Virus record (IMG/VR): IMGVR_UViG_3300022187_000136
Span: 1-31,156 of that record
Source of the DNA: a virus
Length of the DNA: 31,156 nt
Direction: 5' to 3' (one strand)
The notes under the pieces were generated by a model, which saw only the letters and a program-made list of their open reading frames with translations, had not been told where the DNA came from and searched no databases. Position 1 is the stretch's first letter; the number at the start of each line of letters is the position of its first letter. Of the stretch, positions 633 through 31,156 are shown piece by piece. Both the position numbers and the translations under genes were made by a program.

Positions 633-1058
633 ATGATAACAGCCACAACTACTGGCTTGATCGGCGAACACATCGCGGCGGCTTCGATCCTGTCGATGGG
701 GTGGCGTGTCGGTATGGCACAGCAAGACAGTGTGGATCTGCTGGCTTGGAACAACAACACATATGTCCGGGTTCAAGTTAAGTCTGCCAGCCCATATGAA
801 TATAATAAGGGCGGCTATCAATTCCAGCTAGGCTCTGGATCTAAGTCAAAGAAATTGCCATCCATCCAGCTATTCGATATGATTGCGCTGGTCGCTGTCG
901 ATCAGCGCCGGGTCAAATATCTAGCCACGGAACAGGTGCAACAGTTTACCAAGCGATGCACCCGGCGGTGGTTTGAAGATCTGGAAAACGAAATCGACAG
1001 CTTTAATTATGCGATTGAAATCATCGAGGCGCGAAATGGATTGGTCAAGGTATCCTAA
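633..1058 (+). CDS. PD-(D/E)XK nuclease-superfamily protein
   Basis: 141 aa, starting at the ATG immediately after the previous stop. The core signature of the superfamily is visible: Glu12 in GLIGEHIAAA, Asp35 in QDSVDLLAW, and the QVK triad with Gln48 and Lys50 in VRVQVKSA. This layout (GE, then VD, then a V-x-V-Q-V-K strand) is that of small group-I-intron-endonuclease or restriction-like folds in which Gln replaces the second acidic residue. The residues are seen; nuclease activity is inferred from them. Its last 23 bases overlap the endolysin gene. It is one of four PD-(D/E)XK-type products here, so it may act in host DNA breakdown or recombination, despite sitting in a lysis neighbourhood. 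Confidence 0.75.
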   Translation: MITATTTGLIGEHIAAASILSMGWRVGMAQQDSVDLLAWNNNTYVRVQVKSASPYEYNKGGYQFQLGSGSKSKKLPSIQLFDMIALVAVDQRRVKYLATEQVQQFTKRCTRRWFEDLENEIDSFNYAIEIIEARNGLVKVS

Positions 1059-1407
1059 TTTTAGTGAGGATGAGTTTAAGTGTAGTCATACTGGTAAGTG
1101 TGCAATGGATAGTGGCTTTATGGATAAGCTACAGGCATTGCGCTCAGAGCTTGCTGAGGCGATGACAGTGACGTCTGGCTATAGAGACACCAGCCATCCT
1201 GTTGAGGCCAGCAAGGGGCGTCCGGGGACGCATACACGCGGCATTGCTGTGGACATAGCGTGTGACGGTCAGCAGGCGTATCGGATTATGGCGCTGGCAA
1301 TGAAGCACGGTTTCACTGGCATCGGCGTCAGCCAGTCTGGCGGCGGTCGGTTCTTACATTTGGATACGTTCACTGGTGGGCCGCGTCCGAATGTCTGGAG
1401 CTACTGA
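1036..1407 (+). CDS. M15-family D,D-peptidase endolysin
   Basis: 123 aa, Peptidase_M15_3 type. The start is taken at the ATG at 1036, giving MDWSRYPNFSEDEF, where the family normally begins; GAGG lies six bases upstream. A longer in-frame reading from 973 would add a poor N terminus overlapping the nuclease gene. Zinc ligands expected for the family are present: His66 and Asp73 in HTRGIAVDIA and His108 in FLHLDT. SGYRD (47-51) is the usual substrate-side motif. The enzyme should cleave peptide cross-links of peptidoglycan. There is no signal peptide, so release depends on the two membrane proteins that follow, both overlapping by one to four bases. Confidence 0.93.
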   Translation: MDWSRYPNFSEDEFKCSHTGKCAMDSGFMDKLQALRSELAEAMTVTSGYRDTSHPVEASKGRPGTHTRGIAVDIACDGQQAYRIMALAMKHGFTGIGVSQSGGGRFLHLDTFTGGPRPNVWSY

Positions 1408-1607
1408 TGTCAGCCAAAGACATATTGGAATGGAAGATACTGCCGCGTCTAATGATGGCGATTATGACGCTGATGAGTTGGCGTTGTGCCGAGTGGTTTA
1501 TGAAATTGGAAGACCCAACAGCCGCACAGTCAGCCTTTGTCAGCGTTGTAATGGGCGCTATGACAGGTGCGTTTGGTATTTGGATGGGAAATGAGGCAAA
1601 GAAATGA
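1407..1607 (+). CDS. Small two-helix membrane protein, probable holin
   Basis: 66 aa. The ATG overlaps the endolysin stop by one base. Two hydrophobic helices (about residues 11-31 and 43-61) are separated by a short loop containing KLEDPT, with a basic C-terminal tail (NEAKK). Size, topology and position directly after the endolysin fit a class II-like holin. It contains three Trp, and its first helix is Met-rich. The next gene encodes a second holin-like protein, so one of the two may act as an antiholin or pinholin. That assignment is inference. Confidence 0.75.
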   Translation: MSAKDILEWKILPRLMMAIMTLMSWRCAEWFMKLEDPTAAQSAFVSVVMGAMTGAFGIWMGNEAKK

Positions 1608-1978
1608 TTGATTTATTAGTCGGCCCTATCACCGGGCTATTGGATAAGTTTATTGAAGACAAGGATCAGAAGGCACAGCTCGCTCACGATCTCGCCACAA
1701 TGTCACAGCGTCATACGCAAGAGCAGATCTTGGCGCAGTTGGAAATCGCCAAGCAAGATGCCAAAGGTAATTGGTTTCAGTCGAGTTGGCGCCCATTGAT
1801 CGGGTGGATCTGCGGCTTGTCTTTGGGCATCAATTATATGGTCGCGCCTATTGCCGCTGGGTTCGGCATCACCATACCTCAAGCGGATATGAGCGTGATG
1901 ATGCCGTTGTTGTTTGGTATGCTTGGCATCGCTGGTATGCGTTCCTATGATAAGAAGCAAGCCACCGATACCAAGTAA
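1604..1978 (+). CDS. GTA-type three-helix holin
   Basis: 124 aa, with an ATGA overlap with the previous gene. The family hallmark is visible: an N-terminal GPITGLLDKFI helix, a charged amphipathic segment (about 18-56), then WRPLIGW (62-68) opening a hydrophobic segment to about 89, and a last helix (about 95-112) before a charged tail. This matches the Holin_3TM family (GTA_holin_3TM) known from alphaproteobacterial gene transfer agents and many phages. It should permeabilise the inner membrane for endolysin release. It is the last rightward gene before the leftward operon, and its stop lies only two bases from the end of the convergent exonuclease gene. Confidence 0.88.
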   Translation: MIDLLVGPITGLLDKFIEDKDQKAQLAHDLATMSQRHTQEQILAQLEIAKQDAKGNWFQSSWRPLIGWICGLSLGINYMVAPIAAGFGITIPQADMSVMMPLLFGMLGIAGMRSYDKKQATDTK

Positions 1979-1980
1979 TC

Positions 1981-2937
1981 TTACAGCTCTTTAATGCTGA
2001 GTGTCTTCTGCCTAACAAATGTTTCCGGCTTGGCAGGCACGACCTTCTCAGGTTGCGCCTTGGTGCGCCGCATCGGCCATTTGATTTGGTAATGCGACAG
2101 ACCAATGTTTACTCGCGCCTCATCGTGGTTGCCCATCAGCTCTTTGATCGTAGCCTCGGCCTGATCTATGTCAGCCTCGGCTTGTTTCTTAGCTTCCTTG
2201 GCGGCGATGAGATCCTCAAACGCTGTGAGTGCATCCGGCTGGTCGTTTAGATCCAGCGGTTCTGCGTCAGGCTCTGCCTCTGGATAGGCGTGGTTGCCAT
2301 CGTCAGACGATAGCACCGGGTACATATCGCCTGTCTTGCGGCGTTTCTCAAAGTTGAGGATGGCATCCTCGATGCGCTTTTGCATGACCGCATCAGCTTC
2401 ATAAACAAAGACACGCATTTCAATGCCGCGATAGAGTACGCAGACAGCGCCCCATTTATAACCGCCACACATCATCTGCGCCTGTAATTGCCAGACGCCT
2501 CGGTGTGCGGCTGGCATCTCTTCGGGCATAGCGCTGGTGGCCTTAGCTTCCAGAACGCCTATCGTGCTGATGTCAATCTCATCGCTGGTCATGCAATATA
2601 TACCATTAGCGGTATCAGTCTTGATCGTGCCGTTGGCAACGCCCAGCCCATCAAGGCTGGCGGCCAGCGGCAGATCAGGGTGGAACTCCGGCTTGGTTAT
2701 ATTGACCTCATGATTGCGTAAGCCCAAACGTTTGGCGGCTTCATTGAGAATAACATTCTCAAGGCGGTCACCCCACTCGGTAATCTCATTGCCGTGGAAC
2801 GTAGGCTCAAACTTATCGTGATCCCTCTGGATCATTTCAGATAGCAATTCGTTCTGCGTTGCGTAAGGCGATAGACCCAGCAACACTGGTATGCGTGATG
2901 CTGAAATCATATTATCAGGTGTTAGTTTACCGACCAT
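1981..2937 (-). CDS. YqaJ-type viral recombinase / lambda-exonuclease-like nuclease
   Basis: 318 aa. The start is the ATG at 2937 because a GGGGGA ribosome site lies just upstream; a TTG at 2952 would add only five residues. Residues 11-20 carry the YqaJ entry motif (SASRIPVLLG). Active-site residues follow in order: Glu60 (WGDRLEN), Asp96 (AASLDG), Glu130-x-Lys132 (VLEAK) and Gln152/Gln154 (LQAQ). Residues after about 235 form a charged coiled coil and a basic tail, an extension beyond the nuclease core. Such exonucleases resect DNA ends for single-strand annealing. No RecT, Erf or Beta homologue is recognisable, so its partner may be the SSB-like protein or a host factor. Last gene of the leftward operon. 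Confidence 0.9.
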   Translation of the reverse strand: MVGKLTPDNMISASRIPVLLGLSPYATQNELLSEMIQRDHDKFEPTFHGNEITEWGDRLENVILNEAAKRLGLRNHEVNITKPEFHPDLPLAASLDGLGVANGTIKTDTANGIYCMTSDEIDISTIGVLEAKATSAMPEEMPAAHRGVWQLQAQMMCGGYKWGAVCVLYRGIEMRVFVYEADAVMQKRIEDAILNFEKRRKTGDMYPVLSSDDGNHAYPEAEPDAEPLDLNDQPDALTAFEDLIAAKEAKKQAEADIDQAEATIKELMGNHDEARVNIGLSHYQIKWPMRRTKAQPEKVVPAKPETFVRQKTLSIKEL

Positions 2938-2938
2938 T

Positions 2939-3055
2939 TTACATTCCCCCAAAGTAAGCTATTGCGCCCCACCAAGTGAGCTGTGGGTTACCAGTGATAT
3001 TGAGCCAGCCCATCACAAAGACGGCGCCAGCAAGATAAGCTATGAATTTAGCCAT
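2939..3055 (-). CDS. 38-aa membrane microprotein
   Basis: The reading begins MAKFIAYLAGAV and ends AIAYFGGM. The ATG at 3055 has a strong AGGGAG site about eight bases upstream, in a context (CAAAAGGGAGATT) identical to that before the first gene of this operon. The stop lies one base before the ATG of the exonuclease gene, a typical coupled arrangement. A hydrophobic stretch (about residues 4-20) suggests one membrane span, with a second weakly hydrophobic Trp-rich part near the C terminus. Function unknown. The coding call rests on the ribosome site, tight packing and clean boundaries. Confidence 0.65.
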   Translation of the reverse strand: MAKFIAYLAGAVFVMGWLNITGNPQLTWWGAIAYFGGM

Positions 3056-3213
3056 TGAACAATCTCCCTTTTGTTAAAGAATATGTGACGTTTTAGCGTC
3101 ACCTCGCGCCACGGCTTTGGCGAATTTTTTTTCCACCAACGATAAGCCTCAGCTTTGGTGGCGAAAAACATACTCGGTTCTTCGATTTGCCAGATAGTTG
3201 TTTGAGCATACAT
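3040..3213 (-). CDS. 57-aa basic protein of unknown function
   Basis: The ATG at 3213 shares a base with the stop of the serine recombinase (TAATG), and the reading ends by overlapping the next small gene by 16 bases. The product begins MYAQTTIWQIEEPSMFFATK, is rich in Trp, Lys and Arg, and contains the run RWWKKNSPKPWREV, so nucleic-acid or membrane contact is possible. No known domain is recognised. The downstream part of the gene contains a perfect hairpin-forming sequence (3085-3102, six-base arms GTGACG/CGTCAC). Coding status is inferred from one-base coupling on both sides. Confidence 0.6.
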   Translation of the reverse strand: MYAQTTIWQIEEPSMFFATKAEAYRWWKKNSPKPWREVTLKRHIFFNKREIVQWLNS

Positions 3214-3854
3214 TATGCTAACTCCCGGTTGACTAGGTTACGCACAGAGGTGCTGTGCCACGCGCCACCCATTGCGGATGGAATACGAGCGTCATTCAGA
3301 GTGTCGGCAATCTTCGCAAACGACACGCCTGACTGACGTAATGTTTTAATGATGGGCATAGCCTCGACAGCAACAGTGGCTGTCTTGCCCCTACGAGCTT
3401 CACCAGCGGCTTTACCGCCTGCGTGTGGGTTAGGACTGCCCAGCTTGGTGCCACGGCGTTTAGCGGCGGCTAGGGCGTCCTTGGTGCGCTCACTGATACG
3501 GCGACCCTCGAACTCAGCAAACACCGACATCATCTGCAACATTGTGCGGTCGGCCTCTGGCATATCGGCGCAAGTGATCGGCACGTTAGCTTCTAGTAAG
3601 TTGGCAATAAAAGCCACATTACGAGCCAGTCGGTCGAGCTTGGCAATTAACAAGGTGGCGCCTTCACGTTTGGCGTGGGCCAGTGCCTCAGCTAATTGTG
3701 GGCGGTGGTTGTTCTTACCGCTCTCTACCTCAACATATTCTGCGATGATGCTGTCAGCGAATGGCGCGACAGCTACGCGTTGTGCTTCTAAGCCAAGGCC
3801 GGATTGACCTTGGCGCTGAGTTGATACACGAAAATAAGTGATGTAAGTGGTCAT
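3213..3854 (-). CDS. Small serine recombinase (resolvase/invertase family)
   Basis: 213 aa. The N-terminal catalytic domain has Arg9 and the nucleophile Ser11 in YFRVSTQRQGQSGLGLEAQR, the KLDRLAR signature at 72-78, and the E-helix region FEGRRISERTKDAL (115-128). A C-terminal helix-turn-helix (about 165-213, including FAKIADTLND) should bind DNA. The length is that of resolvases and invertases, not of large serine integrases, which have long C-terminal zinc domains. It would make double-strand exchange at short paired sites: resolving multimers, inverting a segment, or possibly integration. Its ATG overlaps the upstream stop by one base. No obvious paired crossover site or invertible segment was found, so its substrate is unknown. 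Confidence 0.92.
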   Translation of the reverse strand: MTTYITYFRVSTQRQGQSGLGLEAQRVAVAPFADSIIAEYVEVESGKNNHRPQLAEALAHAKREGATLLIAKLDRLARNVAFIANLLEANVPITCADMPEADRTMLQMMSVFAEFEGRRISERTKDALAAAKRRGTKLGSPNPHAGGKAAGEARRGKTATVAVEAMPIIKTLRQSGVSFAKIADTLNDARIPSAMGGAWHSTSVRNLVNRELA

Positions 3855-5102: not shown

Positions 5103-5711
5103 ATGGCGTTAGGATTACAAACAGAAACCACCAGTGGTGGCGACATCGTTCCAATCGTTAAGTGGGACGCAAAAGCTGGCGATATGATCGTTCAAGATCG
5201 TGTTCAGTCAGCCAGTGGCGAATGGCAGAAAGAGGAAAGGGAGATGCCCCTGCCCACGAAATTCGCTATGGATATGGCTGGTATGGAAGTTGGGTGGCTA
5301 TCATTTGCTTCCGGCGCACCAGACTTTCGTATGGTGAAGCTGGGCGAAGCTATGCCGCCAAAGCCAGAGGGCGATTTCAAGAACGCCTTTCGGGTACGCA
5401 TTGGATCAAAGGATCTGGGATTGCGTGAGTTTTCGCACAGCGCCAAGACTGTGATCCGGGCTATGGACACGTTGCATAATCAGTACGAGGCTGAAAAAGG
5501 CAACAACCCCGGCAAGATCCCAGTGGTGGAGATCTCCGGCACAGAAACCGTGAAGATCAACACTCCGCAAGGTGAGTTGCGTTTCAAGGTGCCGCAATGG
5601 TCTATCAGTGGGTGGACAGACAAGCCGGAAATGTTTAACAACACGGCATCTGCGCCTGAGCCTGTCGCCGCTGAACCAGCTCCGGCTGTGAGCGATGACG
5701 ACTTGTTCTAG
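5103..5711 (+). CDS. Phage single-stranded DNA-binding protein (SSB-like)
   Basis: 202 aa with an AGGAG ribosome site. The N-terminal 170 residues are beta-rich with mixed charge, compatible with an OB-type fold. A low-complexity Pro/Ala/Glu linker (about 178-196) leads to an acidic tip, SDDDLF, at the extreme C terminus. That linker-plus-acidic-tip plan is the hallmark of single-strand binding proteins, whose tip recruits replisome partners and shields the DNA groove. Its neighbours (recombination nucleases before, primase-helicase after) fit. The OB fold itself is not proven by eye. A strong hairpin follows the stop. Confidence 0.7.
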   Translation: MALGLQTETTSGGDIVPIVKWDAKAGDMIVQDRVQSASGEWQKEEREMPLPTKFAMDMAGMEVGWLSFASGAPDFRMVKLGEAMPPKPEGDFKNAFRVRIGSKDLGLREFSHSAKTVIRAMDTLHNQYEAEKGNNPGKIPVVEISGTETVKINTPQGELRFKVPQWSISGWTDKPEMFNNTASAPEPVAAEPAPAVSDDDLF

Positions 5712-5720
5712 GTCGTAGTA

Positions 5721-5768
5721 GACAGGGGCGTGGCACTCTCCCGGCCGCGCCCCTGTCGTTTCGGGAGA
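5721..5768 (+). terminator. Hairpin/attenuator between ssb-like and primase genes
   Basis: A perfect 10-base inverted repeat (GACAGGGGCG at 5721-5730 and CGCCCCTGTC at 5748-5757) is followed by GTTTCG, so it has a strong stem but a weak U-tract. The loop carries TCTCCCG (5737-5743), exactly complementary to CGGGAGA at 5762-5768 just downstream, allowing an H-type pseudoknot near the primase ribosome site. Partial terminator or translational control are both possible. Confidence 0.6.
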
Positions 5769-5787
5769 TCGGGAGTGAGGCATAATA

Positions 5788-7617
5788 ATGACAAACATAG
5801 CGGCTTATATAGACACGATTGCGCGACACTACTGGGGTGAGCCTACCAGTGTACGCGGCACAGAACTTAGGTGGGGGACACACGGCTCAAAGAGCGTGGA
5901 TCTAAAGAAAGGTACCTTTTACGATCATGAGGCTGGCGAAGGTGGGGGCGTAGTGGATCTGGTAAAGATGCACGAAGGCGCCCAACTTGCCAGCTTGCCT
6001 GATATCTTAGAGCGTAAGTTTGGGATACCAAAGCAGACGCAGAAGACATTGGCGCCAGCTCGTTGGCTGTCTAAGCGCTATGATTACTACGATGCTGATG
6101 GCGTTCTGGCGTATCAGGTCGAGCGATACGAACCCAAGACATTCAGACAGCGTAGGCCAGAAGGCGATGGCTGGGTGTACAATATGGATGGTATCGAGGC
6201 GGTGCCATATAATCTGCCGGAGATGATTACCAACCCAGACAAGGTTATTGTCATAGTCGAGGGTGAAAAGTGTGTCGAAGCATTAAGACGTTATAACGTC
6301 ATAGCGTCATCAAATCACGGCGGCGCAGGGAATTGGAAGCCAGAGTTAAATCAGTATTTCAAAGATAGGAAGGTCGTTATCATTCCTGACGCGGATGCGG
6401 CTGGCGATAAACACGCCCGAAAGGTCATCCAGAACTTACTAGGTGTTGCCAAAGAGGTGCGCCGTGTGGATCTGCCGGGGCTATCGGATAAGCAGGATGT
6501 CTTCGATTGGCTGAACTCAGGCAATGATGTGTCTAAATTAAAGGCGTTAATTAAGACATCCGAGCCTATCGTGGCAGTCGAAGCTGTCGAGGATACGCCA
6601 GAGGCGCCACAAGCTGACGTCTTTCAGACGTTCGATGAAACCTATCTTATCAATATGCCGCCAGTCGATTGGCTGGTGGATGGTGTGCTTACTAGGCACG
6701 GCTTCAGTGTCATTTATGGTGCGCCGGGTACAGGCAAATCATTCCTAGCGATTGATATGGCGATGAGCATAGCTCACGGTAAGCTGTGGCAGGAACGCCC
6801 TACGATGCGCGGTGGCGTCCTTTACATAGCTGGTGAGGGTGTTGGCGGCTTGGGCAAACGTGTCAAGGCGTGGCGGCTTTATAGAGGCGCTGAGGGCTTG
6901 GGTGATATGGTAGTCTTGCCTACCGCTGTTAATTTCAGAGAGAATGAACAGATTGAAAAGCTACTCCGCACTATAGATGCGCTCGGCAAGCGCTTCAGTT
7001 GCGTTGTCGTGGACACGGTGGCTAGAGCATTGCTAGGCGGCGAAGAGAACTCAGCGACCGATATGGGGCTGTTCGTGGGCGCTTGTGACGCCATCAAGGC
7101 GCATTGTGGTTGTGCGTTGGTGGCTATCCATCACAGCAATAAGAGTAGCTCGGCTGGCATCAATGCTATGCGCGGCTCATCAGCGTTGGCTGGTGCGGCT
7201 GATACGGTCATTAATGTACAGCGTGATGAGGATGTGGTTACCGTCACTATGGAAAAGCAAAAGGACGCAGATCCGGCTGACCCGATGAAATTCGATATGG
7301 TCAATGTGGCGATGCTGGGCGATACGTCAGTCGTATTGCGTCAGCAGGGCGGCGAGGGCAGTACGGCGAAGGGCGGCAAACCAAAGAGTGTCAGCCTCAA
7401 TAAACGTCAGCAGGATGCGCTTCAGTTACTGCGTAATATGATTATCGACAACAAGGGTCAGAAGGTTCGGATCGAGCATTGGCACGATGCGCATAAGCGT
7501 GATTGCCCTGATTTATCGCCCGGCAACCGTAGGGATGCCAGAAGAGCATTGTCTGACAAGCGTGTGATTTTGATGGGAGATGGGTTTGTATGGTTATCAA
7601 GGGGTTACGATGCCTAA
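5788..7617 (+). CDS. Toprim primase-helicase (RepA-like hexameric helicase)
   Basis: 609 aa, with GTGAGG seven bases before the ATG. Residues 1-65 look like a primase CHC2 zinc domain (DHEAGEGGGVVDLV aligns with the usual C-G-E-G-G-D-x-I-D-F motif), but the zinc cysteines are missing. A Toprim domain follows, with Glu158 (VIVEGEKC) and the DxD pair Asp201/Asp203 (IIPDADAAG). The RecA-fold helicase domain has Walker A GAPGTGKS (311-318), Walker B ending at Asp409 (CVVVDT) and HHSNKS as a sensor-like motif. A C-terminal domain of about 80 residues may bind DNA. It should unwind and possibly prime at the fork. No phage DNA polymerase is visible, so it must feed the host replisome. Confidence 0.92.
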   Translation: MTNIAAYIDTIARHYWGEPTSVRGTELRWGTHGSKSVDLKKGTFYDHEAGEGGGVVDLVKMHEGAQLASLPDILERKFGIPKQTQKTLAPARWLSKRYDYYDADGVLAYQVERYEPKTFRQRRPEGDGWVYNMDGIEAVPYNLPEMITNPDKVIVIVEGEKCVEALRRYNVIASSNHGGAGNWKPELNQYFKDRKVVIIPDADAAGDKHARKVIQNLLGVAKEVRRVDLPGLSDKQDVFDWLNSGNDVSKLKALIKTSEPIVAVEAVEDTPEAPQADVFQTFDETYLINMPPVDWLVDGVLTRHGFSVIYGAPGTGKSFLAIDMAMSIAHGKLWQERPTMRGGVLYIAGEGVGGLGKRVKAWRLYRGAEGLGDMVVLPTAVNFRENEQIEKLLRTIDALGKRFSCVVVDTVARALLGGEENSATDMGLFVGACDAIKAHCGCALVAIHHSNKSSSAGINAMRGSSALAGAADTVINVQRDEDVVTVTMEKQKDADPADPMKFDMVNVAMLGDTSVVLRQQGGEGSTAKGGKPKSVSLNKRQQDALQLLRNMIIDNKGQKVRIEHWHDAHKRDCPDLSPGNRRDARRALSDKRVILMGDGFVWLSRGYDA

Positions 7618-7720
7618 ATCACACCAATCACACCAATCACATCACGAAATCACACGCCGTGTGATAAATGTGTGTGATGTGATTTTCCTTAAGGGAAATC
7701 ACATTTCACATCACATCGTA
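7618..7720 (+). repeat. ATCACA/TGTGAT repeat array: candidate origin or operator
   Basis: The gap after the primase-helicase holds six ATCACA (7618, 7627, 7636, 7649, 7698, 7710) and three TGTGAT (7660, 7673, 7678) hexamers in about 100 bases. Two are tandem 9-mers (ATCACACCA at 7618 and 7627). One pair forms a perfect palindrome, ATCACACGCCGTGTGAT (7649-7665). A second inverted repeat (7677-7704) is centred on TTAA within CCTTAAGG, with one mismatched pair. A further TGTGAT lies inside the primase gene at 7563. This resembles iterons or a dense operator next to replication genes. The half-site also resembles half of a CRP site, but the orientation and spacing do not match one. Confidence 0.75.
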
Positions 7721-7743
7721 TTTTTCGCATCAGGGAGAGGGTA

Positions 7744-8316
7744 ATGAGTAAGAGAATTAGAGGCATTGATAGACTGCCTACAAGGGCAGAACAGAATGAT
7801 AGTCGGATTAATGAGGCGGTGCATATGCACGACCGCGTTGTGTCAGATGTCGAAAAGCGATGGGGTGTGGACAGACTGCAAGAGCTGGTGAGTGAGAATA
7901 CCAGACGCAAGTTTCATTTACAGCGTCAGAAGCTGTGGGATGCTTTGACCAAGAATGATGGGCGTGACGCAATACATCAGGCTGAGGTCATGTGCAGGGC
8001 GTATCAGGTGCTAGAACGTGAGGCCATAGGGTTAGGCTGTAAAGAGCTGACAGGTGACTATATCGAGGGGCTTATGCCTGATGGTCGGGTCATAGCGATT
8101 ACTACTGATAAGTTTGAAGCTGGCAAGGTTGCCAGAGATAATCGGAATATGGTGGTCTATTCGATTGAAGAGATAGGCAGGATCTTGTCGGTTAAGGAAG
8201 CTATGGCCAAGGCCAAGATCAATGAAGCTGTGGCGAGGGTCAAGGGTATCTTTGCTGGTGCTGAGGTAGTTAGTGTGAAACCGCTAGAGGATATTGATGA
8301 TGAAATCCCTTTCTGA
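7744..8316 (+). CDS. Unknown helical protein with SSB-like C-terminal tip
   Basis: 190 aa, with GGAGAGG before the ATG. The body is mostly helical and highly charged. A Gly-containing beta segment (GLMPDGRVIAITTD, about 110-122) lies in the middle. The last residues, DIDDEIPF, almost copy the DDDIPF tip of bacterial SSB, which binds host proteins such as DNA polymerase III chi, PriA, RecQ and RecO. No OB fold is apparent, so this is not an ordinary SSB. Lying between the repeat array and a winged-helix gene, it may recruit host replisome proteins to the origin or compete for them. The tip is seen; the role is inferred. Its 3' end overlaps the next gene by 20 bases. Confidence 0.8.
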   Translation: MSKRIRGIDRLPTRAEQNDSRINEAVHMHDRVVSDVEKRWGVDRLQELVSENTRRKFHLQRQKLWDALTKNDGRDAIHQAEVMCRAYQVLEREAIGLGCKELTGDYIEGLMPDGRVIAITTDKFEAGKVARDNRNMVVYSIEEIGRILSVKEAMAKAKINEAVARVKGIFAGAEVVSVKPLEDIDDEIPF

Positions 8317-8950
8317 ATATAAAAGGCCGTGGTCGGTCATGCCGATGCGTGTGTTTAGTGATAGAACGCTAAAGGAACGCGAACTGCGTGTGCTTGGTGC
8401 GTTGTGTAGCTTTACCAATAGAGCTGGCGTGTGTTGGCCTTCGCTTGAGACAATATGTCAGGTGACAGGCTACGCAGAGCATAGGACGCCCCTCGAAGCG
8501 CTGAAGGTGTTGAAGGCCAAGAAGTACGTCAGACAGCTCAAGCCAAAGGATTACCAGCGCGGCGAAAGCGGATGGTATACGAACAGGTATCAGGTTCTTT
8601 GGGATGGTGATGAACCGTTGCCTACGTTTGAGGAAGTACAGAGCGCACGGCCGTTGCAGATGGTGGTGGATCAGGAAGTTGTGCAAGAAGAAAGTAAAGG
8701 GGGTATGGGGGATGTAGAACTACTCTCTCACTCTCTCGCTCATGCTTATCTGGCGGCTGTCCAAAAGGCGACAGGTCAGGTCAGGCTGTTCGATAATGAG
8801 ATAGCCCACGCCCGGAAGCTGGCAGACCAAGGGCATACACCTAATGATGTCACGGCGGCTACGCTGGTGGTGTGCGACCAAGCCATAGAACGTAGGGCAG
8901 GGGTGCCTTCGCTCGCGGATGTTGCACGGTATATGGGTGCCGTGCAGTGA
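8297..8950 (+). CDS. Winged helix-turn-helix replication-type protein
   Basis: 217 aa from the ATG at 8297 (AGAGG six bases upstream; a second ATG follows at 8300). Residues about 20-100 form a winged helix of the HTH_36 type: LKERELRVLGALCSF, then WPSLETICQVTG, EALKVLKAKKYVRQL and a wing ending NRYQVLW. The C-terminal half has an acidic linker and a helical domain (LSHSLAHAYLAAVQKATG onward) with a pattern like replication-accessory proteins of the DnaT or DnaD sort. Such two-domain proteins often serve as phage origin-binding initiators. With the repeat array just upstream it is the best candidate for the array-binding factor, but a transcriptional regulator is also possible. Confidence 0.75.
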   Translation: MMKSLSEYKRPWSVMPMRVFSDRTLKERELRVLGALCSFTNRAGVCWPSLETICQVTGYAEHRTPLEALKVLKAKKYVRQLKPKDYQRGESGWYTNRYQVLWDGDEPLPTFEEVQSARPLQMVVDQEVVQEESKGGMGDVELLSHSLAHAYLAAVQKATGQVRLFDNEIAHARKLADQGHTPNDVTAATLVVCDQAIERRAGVPSLADVARYMGAVQ

Positions 8951-8951
8951 G

Positions 8952-8971
8952 GCAAACGGTGGTTTGCTTTT
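8952..8971 (+). terminator. Rho-independent-type terminator after replication genes
   Basis: Two bases after the winged-helix stop, GCAAAC (8952-8957) and GTTTGC (8962-8967) form a six-base stem with loop GGTG, followed by four T. It is short but correctly oriented, and marks the end of the replication block. Confidence 0.6.
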
Positions 8972-9089
8972 GCACGGTGGTCAGGGCGCGACATATTAAT
9001 GTCGCAAAAACGCCACCCCTTGCCCCCCACCCCTCGGCGCGTATATGGGGGGGTGTCACACAAAATTTTGGTAGAAATTGGAGAAACGA
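8972..9089 (+). other. Structured intergenic region before packaging genes
   Basis: No gene is credible here. A hairpin GCGACAT-ATTA-ATGTCGC (8988-9005) followed by five A sits inside a longer GGTGG/CCACC pairing (8976-8980 with 9013-9017). A C-run (9023-9028) can pair with a G-run (9047-9053). A weak promoter-like pair, TTGCAC (8970-8975) and TATTAA (8994-8999), is spaced 18 bases. The region is a likely control point between early and late genes, but the exact elements are unproven. Confidence 0.4.
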
Positions 9090-9368
9090 ATGAACAAGAA
9101 CGATTTATTAATGACCGCCATCCGCACGGTAGGCAATCGCGGAGACAGCTACGGCGATGTCTATATCAATCACGAAAGAATTGCGGTAATGTGGACAGTG
9201 ATATTCGGCACTGAGGTGAAGGCGCATCAGGTAGCTATGGCGATGGCGGCGGTAAAGCTGGCACGTTTGGTTGAGACGCCTGATCATCAGGACAGTTGGA
9301 TTGACTTAGCCGGGTATGCCGCGATAGGATCGGAGTGTATTGATGGACAGGAAACCGATGACAGTTAG
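9090..9368 (+). CDS. DUF6378-like phage protein
   Basis: 92 aa from the ATG at 9090, with a GGAG site; a TTG at 9078 would add four residues. The family features are visible: an N-terminal LLMTAIRTVGNRGDSYGDVYINHERIA, then AMAAVKLARLVETPDHQDSWIDLAGYAAIGSE. The RG-x-SYGD and KLARL...DHxDSWxDLAGY motifs are typical of DUF6378 proteins, which resemble MazG-like all-helical pyrophosphohydrolases in size and acidic pattern. Catalysis is not established. The last 26 bases overlap the small terminase gene. First gene of the packaging block. Confidence 0.75.
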   Translation: MNKNDLLMTAIRTVGNRGDSYGDVYINHERIAVMWTVIFGTEVKAHQVAMAMAAVKLARLVETPDHQDSWIDLAGYAAIGSECIDGQETDDS

Positions 9369-9750
9369 ACAACAGAGGGCGGCATTAGCCAGCCCTGACG
9401 TTGATAAGCGCGAGGCGGTCGTACAAGAGCTTGAGGCTATTGCGTCTGGCGTGATTACTGATGTATTGAATTGGGACGATTTGGGTCAGGTGTTTCTGAC
9501 GCCATCGGAGAAATTGTCTGAGCGCTCGCGGCGTGGGATTAAGAAAGTGAAGGTAACGCCTACACAGCACGGCAATAGCATCGAGGTAGAGATGCACGAT
9601 AAATTGTCGGCGTTGCGGCTCTTGGCGAAGCACCGTGGCTTGCTTGAGCCGAACAGTGATGATCAGCGGCCTAGCATGATCGGGATTAATGTGACTGGGC
9701 CGAAGACAACAACGTATGAGGTATTGGATGACCAAAGCGAAGAAGATTGA
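9343..9750 (+). CDS. Terminase small subunit (C-terminal-domain type)
   Basis: 135 aa, with GGAG seven bases before the ATG. Residues about 35-100 carry the late part of Terminase_2-like small subunits: GVITDVLNWDDLGQVFLTPSEKL, then IKKVKVTP, then IEVEMHDKLSALRLLAKHRGLLEP. The usual N-terminal helix-turn-helix that reads the packaging site is not evident; only about 30 residues precede the oligomerisation part. DNA recognition may therefore be supplied by the 53-aa basic or zinc-ribbon proteins that follow, or by a shortened helix pair. It should form the ring that presents DNA to the large subunit. The 3' end overlaps the next small gene by 23 bases. Confidence 0.8.
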   Translation: MDRKPMTVRQQRAALASPDVDKREAVVQELEAIASGVITDVLNWDDLGQVFLTPSEKLSERSRRGIKKVKVTPTQHGNSIEVEMHDKLSALRLLAKHRGLLEPNSDDQRPSMIGINVTGPKTTTYEVLDDQSEED

Positions 9751-27658: not shown

Positions 27659-30600
27659 ATGGCAGACTACAACATAAATGCAGTGACACGCCGGGTCGTG
27701 TTTACAGGTTCAGCAGGCACTGGGCCGTATAGCTTTACGTTTGAGGTGCTGGATCAAAATGATCTGGCCGTATACTTTAACACGACTAAGCTGACGCTGA
27801 CGACAGACTACACTGTCTCTATTGCGGCTAATGGCACTGGGTCGGTGACGATTGTTGTCGGCACCAACGTGCCATCCACGCCTACCGCGTCTGACCAGAT
27901 TGTTATTGTTGGTGCCAGAGACATTGAGCGTACCACCGACTTTGTTACTGCCGGGGATCTTCGCGCCTCAGCTCTAAACGAACAGCTAGACGGCCTAACC
28001 ATTTTTGATCAGCAGATTGCAGAAGAGCAAAAGCGCACATTGCAAGCCCCGGTCTATGACCCAGCTCACGTTGATGATGGCGGCACATTAGATATGACAC
28101 TGCCAGCTAAGGCGGCTCGCGCTGGTAAGTATCTGCAATTCAATAGCACGACAGGTAATCCAGAAGCTGGCCCTGACAGCACTGACGTTACTGCGCTGGC
28201 TGATGTTGCTACCGATATTGCTACACTGGCTGATATACAAGATGGCACGGTTGCAACCAATGCTATCACAACTGTTTCTGGTATCTCAGCTAACGTAACA
28301 ACGGTTGCTGGTATAGCGGCTAACGTGACTACAGTAGCTGGCATTCAATCTGATGTGACTGCGGTGGCGGCTGACGCTACCGACATTGGCACAGTAGCCA
28401 CAAACATCGCGTCTGTTAATACGGTTGCTGGCAACATCAGTGAGGTTATCGCTGTTGCCAACGATCTTAATGAAGCGGTGTCAGAGGTTGAAACTGTTGC
28501 CAATGATCTTAATGAGGCAGTGTCAGAAATCGAAACTGTTGCCGCATCTATTAGCAATGTTGATGCCGTTGGTACAAATATAGCTAACGTTAATACCGTG
28601 GCTGGGAATAATAGCAATGTTACCACGGTGGCTGGTATCTCAGCAAATGTAACGACTGTGGCTGGGATTAGCGGTAATGTAACAACTGTGGCTGGTATAT
28701 CTTCTGACGTTACTACGGTGGCGGCTGATGGCACTGATATTGGTACTGTTGCAACCAATATTGCCAATGTTAATTCTGTTGCTGGCAATGCCACAAACAT
28801 CAACAATGTTGCTGGTAACGCCACAAACATTAATACCGTTGCTGGCATTTCAGCAGACGTATCCACAGTGGCTGGTGATAGCGCAGACATCCAAGCTGTT
28901 GCGGCTGATGCGACTGACATCGGCACAGTGTCTACTAATATTGCTAACGTGAATACGGTGGCTGGCATTAGCGCGAATGTTACAGCAGTAGCTGGTGACG
29001 CAACAGACATTGGAACTGTTGCCGCCGATCTTGCTGGCTCTGATACTATTGGAACGGTTGCTACAAATATTGCTAATGTAAATGCTGTTGGCGGCGATAT
29101 TGCTAATGTCAATACTGTTGCGACAAACATTTCATCAGTCAATGACTTTGCTGATAAATATCGCATTGGTGCTTCTGACCCGACTACATCACTTGATGAA
29201 GGTGATTTGTTCTACAACACCACTACAGACACATTGAAGGTGTACACTGGTTCTGCGTGGGAACAGGGCGTAACAGCTGGTTCTGGCTTCTTGCCTACAA
29301 CTGGCGGCGCAATGACAGGCAATGTGTCCTTCGGCGACAACGACAAGGCCATTTTCGGTGCTGGGTCTGACTTGCAGATTTATCACGATGGGTTTAATAG
29401 TTACATCAAAGAAAATGGAACTGGTGCTTTAAACATACTTGGACAAGGACAAATAAATTTATTAAATAGTGCAGGTGATGAAACATTAGCACAGTTTGTC
29501 ACAAATAGCGCAGTAACCCTATACCACAACAACGCCCCCAAACTCGCCACCACCAATGGCGGCGTAAATGTCACAGGTAATATGGTGGCTGATGATGTCT
29601 ATATTGCTACTTCACTGCGTCACGAAGGGGACAGCGATACTTACCTATACTTCCCTTCAGCAGGCAACACCATTGGCTTGGTCACTGGCGGCTCAGAACG
29701 GATGCGCATCGACAGCGTTGGGAATGTGGGAATTGGGACGAGTTCGCCTAGTGTTGCATTGCATGTAAAGGGAGCAAATAACCCTATCATTTCTCAAAGC
29801 ACTTCAACTGGCGGTGGCCCAAACTCTTTGAAATTTATAGATTCTGCCAGCACAGATTTAGGATATGTAGGCTATGGGGCTGCAAATAAGAGCCTGTATC
29901 TTGTTAACTTTAGTGCAGACCCTATCATTTTCTATAACAGTTCAGAGAAAATGCGTATCGACAGCTCTGGCAACGTGGGCATTGGTACTGCAAGTGTGGA
30001 CGAAAAATTAGATGTTAATGGAAATGTTAAATTTACTGGCACAGGCAGGATAATTAAGTTTGATAAGAACGGTTCTGGTGAAGATAATGCAATTTATTAC
30101 GACAACTCAACAGCCAGCAACAATTTATTTATTGGTAGGGATTCGTCAAACATAGCCTTTAGAACTGGCGGCTCAGAACGCCTCCGCATCGACAGCGTTG
30201 GCAACGTGGGCATCGGGACAAGTAGTCCTTCTGCGCCTATTCATCTTAAAACAAGTGGTTCAGCAGAATTAAGACTTGAGCAAAATGGTGCAGGATACGG
30301 CACTATAAAAAGTTCAGACTTTGGCATTTTGTATCTGGATGCTGATGCAGGAAATACCGTAGCTTCTAGTTCTATGCGTTTTCGTGTTGACGGCTCCGAA
30401 GCAATGCGTATCAACAGCAGCGGCAACGTGGGCATTGGAACGACTTCGCCTAGCACTGCCCTAGATGTTAACGGCACTGTAACAGCCACAGCTTTTGTTG
30501 GTGATGGCTCTGGGCTTTCTAACGTAGGCAACCCTCCAAGCATTCAAGTATTCACATCAAGCGGCACTTGGACAAAGCCATCTGGCTGTAAAACCATCAA

Positions 30601-31156
30601 GGTTACTGTCGTTGGCGGTGGTGGCGGTGGCGGCGGTGCCACAGGTCAGGATTCTGATTGTAATGTCGCCGCAGGCGGCGGAGGCGGAGGCGGTTGCGCT
30701 ATTGAGTATATTGATGTTTCTGCCGAAAGTTCTGTTTCTGTTACCGTGGGCGCTGGCGGCGCTGGCGGAACTGGTGGTACAAACGACGGTTCTACAGGTG
30801 GCACAAGTAGCTTTGGTGCTTACTGCTCTGCTACTGGCGGCGCTGGCGGCGATGCCTTACAGACAGGCGGTAATGATACCACCTATGGTGGAGATAGCGG
30901 AGTTGGTTCAGGCGGAGATATAAACGCAGAAGGTGGAGTAGGCGGAAACAGTGACCTGATTATTAATAACTACACGATAAGTGGTAGTGGTGGAAACTCT
31001 TTCTTTGGGGGTGGGGCTAGAGGGGTTACTCGTACTACAAACGGCACTACGGCGGGTAATGCAGGGACTTTAGGTGGCGGCGGATCAGGTGGCGTAGTCA
31101 GAAACGCTTCTGGAAGTGCTGCCGCTGGTGGTGCTGGTGGTAATGGTATAGTTGTT
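27659..31156 (+). CDS. Tail fibre / receptor-binding protein, 3'-truncated by window end
   Basis: 1166 codons open without a stop to the last base. A GAGG site precedes the ATG. Residues 1-150 are the T7 gp17-like N-terminal attachment domain (NINAVTRRVVFTGSAGTGPY, then DFVTAGDLRASALNEQLDG). About 203-493 is a run of 28 decapeptides of the type VTTVAGISAN. A beta module follows (GDNDKAIFGAGSDLQIYHDG), then four GSERMRIDSxGNVGIG units to about 930. The end (from about 961) is a glycine-rich adhesin-like domain, FTSSGTWTKPSGCKTIKV then polyglycine. The visible end, GGNGIVV, looks like the last strand, so few residues may be missing. Confidence 0.93.
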   Translation, partial: MADYNINAVTRRVVFTGSAGTGPYSFTFEVLDQNDLAVYFNTTKLTLTTDYTVSIAANGTGSVTIVVGTNVPSTPTASDQIVIVGARDIERTTDFVTAGDLRASALNEQLDGLTIFDQQIAEEQKRTLQAPVYDPAHVDDGGTLDMTLPAKAARAGKYLQFNSTTGNPEAGPDSTDVTALADVATDIATLADIQDGTVATNAITTVSGISANVTTVAGIAANVTTVAGIQSDVTAVAADATDIGTVATNIASVNTVAGNISEVIAVANDLNEAVSEVETVANDLNEAVSEIETVAASISNVDAVGTNIANVNTVAGNNSNVTTVAGISANVTTVAGISGNVTTVAGISSDVTTVAADGTDIGTVATNIANVNSVAGNATNINNVAGNATNINTVAGISADVSTVAGDSADIQAVAADATDIGTVSTNIANVNTVAGISANVTAVAGDATDIGTVAADLAGSDTIGTVATNIANVNAVGGDIANVNTVATNISSVNDFADKYRIGASDPTTSLDEGDLFYNTTTDTLKVYTGSAWEQGVTAGSGFLPTTGGAMTGNVSFGDNDKAIFGAGSDLQIYHDGFNSYIKENGTGALNILGQGQINLLNSAGDETLAQFVTNSAVTLYHNNAPKLATTNGGVNVTGNMVADDVYIATSLRHEGDSDTYLYFPSAGNTIGLVTGGSERMRIDSVGNVGIGTSSPSVALHVKGANNPIISQSTSTGGGPNSLKFIDSASTDLGYVGYGAANKSLYLVNFSADPIIFYNSSEKMRIDSSGNVGIGTASVDEKLDVNGNVKFTGTGRIIKFDKNGSGEDNAIYYDNSTASNNLFIGRDSSNIAFRTGGSERLRIDSVGNVGIGTSSPSAPIHLKTSGSAELRLEQNGAGYGTIKSSDFGILYLDADAGNTVASSSMRFRVDGSEAMRINSSGNVGIGTTSPSTALDVNGTVTATAFVGDGSGLSNVGNPPSIQVFTSSGTWTKPSGCKTIKVTVVGGGGGGGGATGQDSDCNVAAGGGGGGGCAIEYIDVSAESSVSVTVGAGGAGGTGGTNDGSTGGTSSFGAYCSATGGAGGDALQTGGNDTTYGGDSGVGSGGDINAEGGVGGNSDLIINNYTISGSGGNSFFGGGARGVTRTTNGTTAGNAGTLGGGGSGGVVRNASGSAAAGGAGGNGIVV
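28265..29137 (+). repeat. Decapeptide-coding repeats in tail fibre (30-bp period)
   Basis: 291 codons encode 28 ten-residue units of consensus (V/I)-x-T-V-A-G-x-x-x-N, with three short interruptions (two AVSE and one SDT). Units such as VTTVAGISAN, VNTVAGNISE and IGTVATNIAN diverge mainly at synonymous sites. The period suits a trimeric coiled or helical shaft. Confidence 0.9.
29690..30441 (+). repeat. Four GSERMRIDSxGNVGIG modules in tail fibre
   Basis: Copies occur near residues 678, 761, 838 and 912, separated by 83, 77 and 74 residues. Nucleotide similarity is high in the motif cores and low between them. These look like modular beta-prism units that could be shuffled by recombination. 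Confidence 0.85.

Follow-up and report, generated by a model that had tools for sequence, protein, structure and literature searches.

A dense array of short repeats that directly follows a phage primase-helicase gene is probably a replication origin. Sequence comparisons and predicted structures favour, as its reader, the winged-helix domain at the C-terminus of the primase-helicase over the separate winged-helix protein encoded at 8297-8950. The DNA analysed (hereafter the window) comprises 31,156 nucleotides, positions 1 to 31,156 of the IMG/VR virus record IMGVR_UViG_3300022187_000136. We have good confidence in the model as a whole, in which the array would be an origin read by the helicase C-terminal domain, the adjoining hairpin would serve in priming or assembly, the product of the next open reading frame (ORFX) would serve in recruitment, and domain and array would form an exchangeable cassette.

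The 98 bp from 7618 to 7715 hold nine exact hexamers ATCACA/TGTGAT, the number that the original prediction had given for about 100 bases. They start at 7618, 7627, 7636 and 7649 on the plus strand, at 7660, 7673 and 7678 on the minus strand and at 7698 and 7710 on the plus strand, the apex of the hairpin lying before the last two (copy order ++++ --- (apex) ++; no strand is assigned to the array as a whole). The tandem 9-mer, the 17-bp palindrome and the longer inverted repeat of that prediction are all present as well. Two tandem 9-mers ATCACACCA (7618-7635, plus strand) are followed by a varied third copy, ATCACATCA, at 7636-7644; the palindrome ATCACACGCCGTGTGAT, also without assigned strand, occupies 7649-7665; and the inverted repeat at 7677-7704 contains one mismatched pair. 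The array starts immediately behind the helicase stop codon and stops 28 bp 5' of the ORFX start. In the 180 bp 5' of ORFX the top hexamer occurs nine times, whereas 200 dinucleotide shuffles gave 2.7 on average and never more than 5, and other 150-bp stretches of the window hold at most five copies of any hexamer. ATCACA/TGTGAT was counted only 15 times in the rest of the 31 kb, which is background level (19.6 expected for the whole window) and agrees with its predicted concentration here; the cluster is the single one of its sort in the window. When folded as single-stranded DNA, the array region gave a z-score of -3.8, and none of 200 shuffles was equally stable. GC skew lends the origin reading no support: no switch was seen at the array in the window, and in the complete CRP-831 genome the skew extremes are located away from the array.

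The array is embedded in a block that consists, in order, of two PDDEXK/RusA-type nuclease genes, an SSB-like gene, the primase-helicase gene, the array, ORFX, an HTH_36 gene, a DUF6378 gene, TerS and TerL. To call it the only gap in the replication block was an overstatement, as gaps of about 76 bp (5711-5788) and 140 bp (8950-9090) are also found. The gene resembling those of phage ssDNA-binding proteins (5103-5711, plus strand) ends in SDDDLF and keeps its place in the block; the gene at the same place in CRP-831 is annotated as an ssDNA-binding protein. The 609-residue primase-helicase (5788-7617, plus strand), the proposed self-loading initiator, combines Toprim with an AAA_25/RepA-type ATPase. 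It matched AAA_25 in Pfam at 1.8e-38, with a weak Toprim match under the Pfam cut-off, and DNA polymerase/primase (3e-53) and primase/helicase (1e-42) families in PHROGs. The separate winged-helix protein (8297-8950, plus strand) is replication-initiation-like and matched Pfam HTH_36 at 2.1e-7, and TerS (9340-9750, Terminase_2) lies 1.6 kb from the array. Elsewhere in the window, a serine recombinase gene of the resolvase/invertase type (3213-3854, minus strand) is kept near a YqaJ exonuclease gene in relatives, and a long tail-fibre-like ORF with NVTTVAGI-type repeats (27659-31156) runs off the contig; a 273-aa ORF on the opposite strand (28345-29166) looks like its shadow.

In order to compare this region among relatives, we collected 42 IMG/VR loci by a helicase search, about 150 further loci, many of them overlapping records, by alignment-based searches with the winged-helix protein and ORFX, and three MAG loci. 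The order helicase, gap (mostly 100-170 bp) and ORFX is kept in more than 100 of the relatives' loci. These gaps resemble one another in layout but differ in sequence. They fall into 62 spacer groups, nearly every one of which repeats a word of its own on both strands, followed by a hairpin and ORFX. The array is kept by relatives, as its predicted function had implied, dozens of distinct ones retaining the layout between the primase-helicase gene and ORFX. The word is ATCACA in the window, ATCGCA in L013-L016, ATCGTA in L017 and ATCTCA in L032-L036, and further lineages carry GTTGCA (L125), CGGACA (L135), CCGACC (L136) or CCGTAC (L146/L147). All copies within an array change together, lineage by lineage; such concerted change of direct and inverted copies is the expected effect of a DNA-reading protein that changes with them. 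The same layout was found in CRP-811, CRP-821, CRP-823 and CRP-831, which are cultured Roseobacter phages (PMC12629253).

A few loci depart from this layout. In L169, L173 and MW202711, the helicase gene is no neighbour of the array or hairpin, which stays 5' of ORFX; in MW202711 (L204), 1.5 kb separate the helicase gene from a GGGACA array. The RepA-type helicase of this last record (972-3272) itself ends in ...DDIPFD, an SSB-tip-like tail. A long GGGACA array with a hairpin directly follows the helicase gene in L202 (1750-2100), a Rhizobium MAG in which ORFX is undetectable. L170 and L171 have neither array nor hairpin, and their ORFX comes immediately behind a YqaJ-type exonuclease gene and a short ORF. 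Gene order differs in L027, L028, L037 and L039, partial records in which no ORFX was found; there, a GC-rich terminator-like hairpin and another gene take the place of the array behind a related helicase gene.

The hairpin beside the iterons is an extended inverted repeat (7669-7716, without assigned strand) with a 28-bp core, ATGTGATTTTCCTTAAGGGAAATCACAT, at 7677-7704 and its apex, CCTTAAGG, at 7687-7694. Of 69 distinct loci, 46 carry a hairpin with a CC..TA..GG apex 5' of ORFX, where shuffles led us to expect 2.8; the median distance to the ORFX start is 48 bp. The apex is nearly fixed (CCTATA, CTATA, CTTA or CTA), and the arms are built of the lineage's word; the core AACCCTTTAGGGTT is common to both CRP word types (CRP-821 and CRP-823). 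No promoter-like or terminator-like site was matched in 7400-7900, and no Rfam family reached threshold for the hairpin region. A sub-threshold Rfam hit to Whalefall-1 (E 0.73) was absent from the relatives L064 and L094 and was taken as chance. We also considered that CACTATAGGG might be a T7-like promoter and rejected this by inference, given that the element is palindromic, that its TATA is not constant and that the upstream words recur many times, on both strands. As the hairpin element is palindromic, a role in RNA and a role in DNA are indistinguishable by sequence.

We then asked which protein reads the word. The proposed origin-reading domain, residues 538-606 of the primase-helicase (7399-7605, plus strand), was modelled with an AF2 pLDDT of 86 as H-(beta)-H-H-beta-beta, that is, three helices and a two-stranded wing, and is predicted to fold as a winged helix. 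The top Foldseek matches of this domain in the PDB were mostly winged helices (MCM C-term, Rpa2 WH, Fur, LexA), none with an E-value below 0.001, and a PDB profile search with it gave no relevant match. The predicted recognition helix NRRDARRALSDKR (residues 578-590; 7519-7557, plus strand) lies inside the stretch that best predicts the word, residues 566-590. Among 32 representative helicases with body identity of at most 88%, identity over this stretch predicted a shared word with an AUC of 0.885 raw and 0.824 once the helicase-body effect was removed (permutation p=0.0003), values to be read with the caveats that the segment was picked after the alignments had been seen, that words were cut to top hexamers and that the representatives are related. 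The independent check on this post hoc choice is provided by the cultured CRP phages, which lay outside the shared-word test. AUC values elsewhere were at most 0.68 for other helicase segments, 0.35 for ORFX and 0.43-0.47 for the separate winged-helix protein. All eight ATCACA representatives carry G(K/N)RRDAR in the recognition helix while the rest of their chains is widely different; the helix reads R(K/R)R(S/A)DDR in ATCTCA lineages and SARRDAR, PARRDAR, AKRRDAR or, in one case, AQRKDAR in ATCGCA lineages.

The original prediction had paired the array, as a set of iterons, with the product of 8297-8950 as its initiator. An iteron-type origin is still the best explanation of an array that is unique in the window and kept in relatives, but the proposed reader did not withstand the comparison. 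In L111 and L121 the separate winged-helix proteins are 99.6-100% identical and the ORFX products 97% identical, yet the words are unrelated; both proteins are therefore unlikely readers. These words, together with the AUC values, led us to reject the 8297-8950 protein as the likely reader; its gene is, moreover, undetectable in many array-bearing relatives. ORFX had been an appealing candidate, since the array stays with it in rearranged loci, and was rejected on the same near-identity. Also discarded were the serine recombinase, which lies about 4 kb off and retains 92-93% identity where the word changes between ATCACA and ATCGCA, and host CRP-like sites, for which the half-site spacing does not fit and the lineage-wise change of the word is unsuited. 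Earlier word measures (5-mer cosine and a mismatch kernel) gave weak, mixed correlations in which ORFX scored about as the helicase domain did; the deciding evidence on the reader came from the shared-top-word test on representatives and from cassette pairs.

In four such pairs, whose helicase bodies are 93-97% identical, the DNA between about -300 and +120 bp of the helicase stop codon is only about 40-80% identical, and identity recovers at ORFX. A fifth pair, L111/L121, shows a drop that begins about 970 bp upstream and ends at the same place. Protein identities behave likewise: body 97%, domain 28% and ORFX 94% in L140/L141, and body 93%, domain 46% and ORFX 94% in L136/L139. CRP-821 and CRP-823 are 96.3% identical over the helicase body (656 aa), 71.8% over the last 85 aa and 54% over the array DNA, with TTTATACA-type and TTTGTAGT-type words, respectively. 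Conversely, CRP-831 and CRP-821 share just 91.5% of the body but 98.8% of the last 85 residues and 98.9% of the arrays. Some changes of word, in L083/L150 and L111/L115, weigh against the model in that the accompanying domain changes are small (88-90% identity). Since the identities of domain and array fall together and then recover at ORFX, both move as one; on the evidence of these alignments, the winged-helix domain and the array are a single exchangeable specificity cassette of about 400 bp.

ORFX (7744-8316, plus strand) encodes 190 aa, follows the array in nearly all relatives and is proposed to be an SSB-tailed accessory factor. It matched no convincing family in Pfam, NCBIfam or PHROGs, and its predicted structure (AF2 pLDDT 87) had no PDB match and one weaker viral match, to a protein named terminase small subunit. 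Its C-terminal DDEIPF (codons at 8296-8313, plus strand) is the same as an SSB C-terminal tip, and an SSB-tip-like C-terminus was found in 77 of 80 non-redundant ORFX; the ORFX of the cultured CRP phages are without it. In L065 (2921-3511) ORFX is in two pieces, owing to a frameshift or a sequencing error. SSB ends in DMDDEIPF (Rhizobium) or DLDDDIPF (Hyphomicrobiales) in alphaproteobacterial MAGs carrying relatives. The tip (DDDIPF) is described in PMC5872125 as the part by which bacterial SSB binds its partners.

Other readings of the array were weighed against the origin read by its own helicase. The array could be an iteron origin read by the separate winged-helix protein in the manner of lambda O or RepC, with the helicase recruited afterwards. 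This protein is initiator-like by its HTH_36 and PHROG replication initiation matches, and its gene often lies one gene downstream of the array; on the other side stand the unrelated words of L111/L121, its chance-level AUC, its frequent absence from detection and its position in CRP-831, where it is not adjacent to the array. We consider this reading very unlikely. It is also unlikely that the array is an operator through which the helicase C-terminal domain or another phage protein controls the ORFX operon, without origin function. Such a role would suit an array that lies directly 5' of ORFX and stays with it when gene order changes, and iterons often act both as origin and operator. The absence of promoter-like and terminator-like sites in 7400-7900 and the conserved central hairpin, needless for an operator, speak against it, and where replicative primase-helicases carry sequence-reading domains, these are known to bind origins (PMC7581432, PMC4234260).

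We see hardly any likelihood that the terminase small subunit reads the array as a DNA-packaging (pac) site, as the nearby TerS gene and the name of the weaker structural match of ORFX might suggest. Compared with ATCGCA relatives, the TerS of the window shows 89-90% identity, the gene lies about 4 kb off across the record start in CRP-831 while the array stays by the helicase gene, and the word follows the helicase domain. A structured RNA, such as a leader or attenuator of the ORFX message, would account for the conserved hairpin before ORFX and for arms that change compensatorily between lineages, the words co-changing merely to keep the arms complementary. However, direct repeats outside the hairpin change along with the arms, neither a terminator nor an Rfam family at threshold was found, and the linkage to the helicase recognition helix is left unexplained, which makes this reading extremely improbable.

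Iteron designs read by a helicase are already known from SaPI Rep and SCCmec Cch2, two systems left unmentioned in the original prediction. As presented in PMC7581432 (citing Ubeda et al. 2007), the C-terminal domain of SaPI Rep reads iterons just downstream of its own gene; Cch2 likewise uses its C-terminal domain to bind direct repeats that are located downstream of its gene and close to inverted repeats (PMC7581432). P4 alpha is a primase-helicase whose winged helix binds origin repeats and which also primes, the RSF1010 oriV employs RepA, RepB' and RepC, of which RepC reads the iterons, with the hairpins ssiA and ssiB for priming, and pRN1 ORF904 has a C-terminal winged helix and, just downstream, an essential stem-loop of variable sequence and conserved shape (PMC4234260). 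The window shares with the first two a short-repeat array directly downstream of the helicase gene and a C-terminal DNA-binding-type domain, whose changes here match those of the iterons. It differs from SaPI Rep in its helicase family, in belonging to a phage and not a satellite, in its hairpin with a nearly fixed apex and in its SSB-tailed neighbour; homology to SaPI Rep (DUF927 or Primase_Cterm/D5_N) was not found in the Pfam scan, which gave AAA_25 and Toprim. Cch2 is a D5/Primase_Cterm protein of a staphylococcal element with a separate polymerase-primase and three iterons. Like P4 alpha, a satellite protein from a different helicase superfamily, the window protein would unite a Toprim primase (a weak match here), a helicase and a predicted winged-helix domain in one chain, but here the array adjoins the gene's 3' end, and domain and array are exchanged together. 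A RepA-type helicase and iterons are shared with RSF1010, and the conserved hairpin beside the iterons may correspond to its priming hairpins; the three separate polypeptides of RSF1010 contrast with the single one that would here combine priming, unwinding and reading. As to a separate reader of the RepC type, the word was tracked neither by the separate winged-helix protein nor by ORFX, and the lack of tracking by the former, which is O/DnaD-like, likewise disfavours a lambda-type, O-like initiator. pRN1 resembles the window in its C-terminal winged helix and in the stem-loop that closely follows the gene, but is without iterons and has an archaeo-eukaryotic primase and an SF3 helicase. By analogy, it appears most plausible that a helicase of another type works here as SaPI Rep, Cch2 and P4 alpha do. 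In the literature searched we did not find this helicase type, the cassette exchange, the nearly-fixed-apex hairpin or the SSB-tailed partner described for such a design.

On this basis, we infer that the winged-helix domains of the helicase subunits bind the repeated word in the iterons, and that the bound helicase may load itself on its own origin with no separate initiator. Once assembled, it would melt the DNA beside the conserved hairpin, and its Toprim part would prime. The hairpin would probably become exposed on unwinding and offer a priming or assembly site, and ORFX, which ends like the host SSB, probably draws host replication proteins to the opened origin. We are evenly divided on whether this constitutes a widespread kind of phage origin not described before, whose RepA/Toprim primase-helicase reads its own origin, whose specificity is repeatedly swapped between near-identical phages in cassettes of about 400 bp, and whose module is completed by ORFX and a hairpin with a nearly fixed apex.

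If the model is true, both origin and reader are identified for cultured Roseobacter phages as well as for a large group of uncultured marine phages, and matched domain-word pairs form a natural panel for working out a winged-helix recognition code. ORFX, with a host SSB tip beside the origin, could offer phages a way of capturing host replication proteins. Swaps of origin specificity between otherwise near-identical phages are unexpected for an essential module and raise the question of the selecting force; a rapid change of the origin 'password' would suggest antagonism, for example interference from co-infecting phages, or from defences and satellites that target origins.
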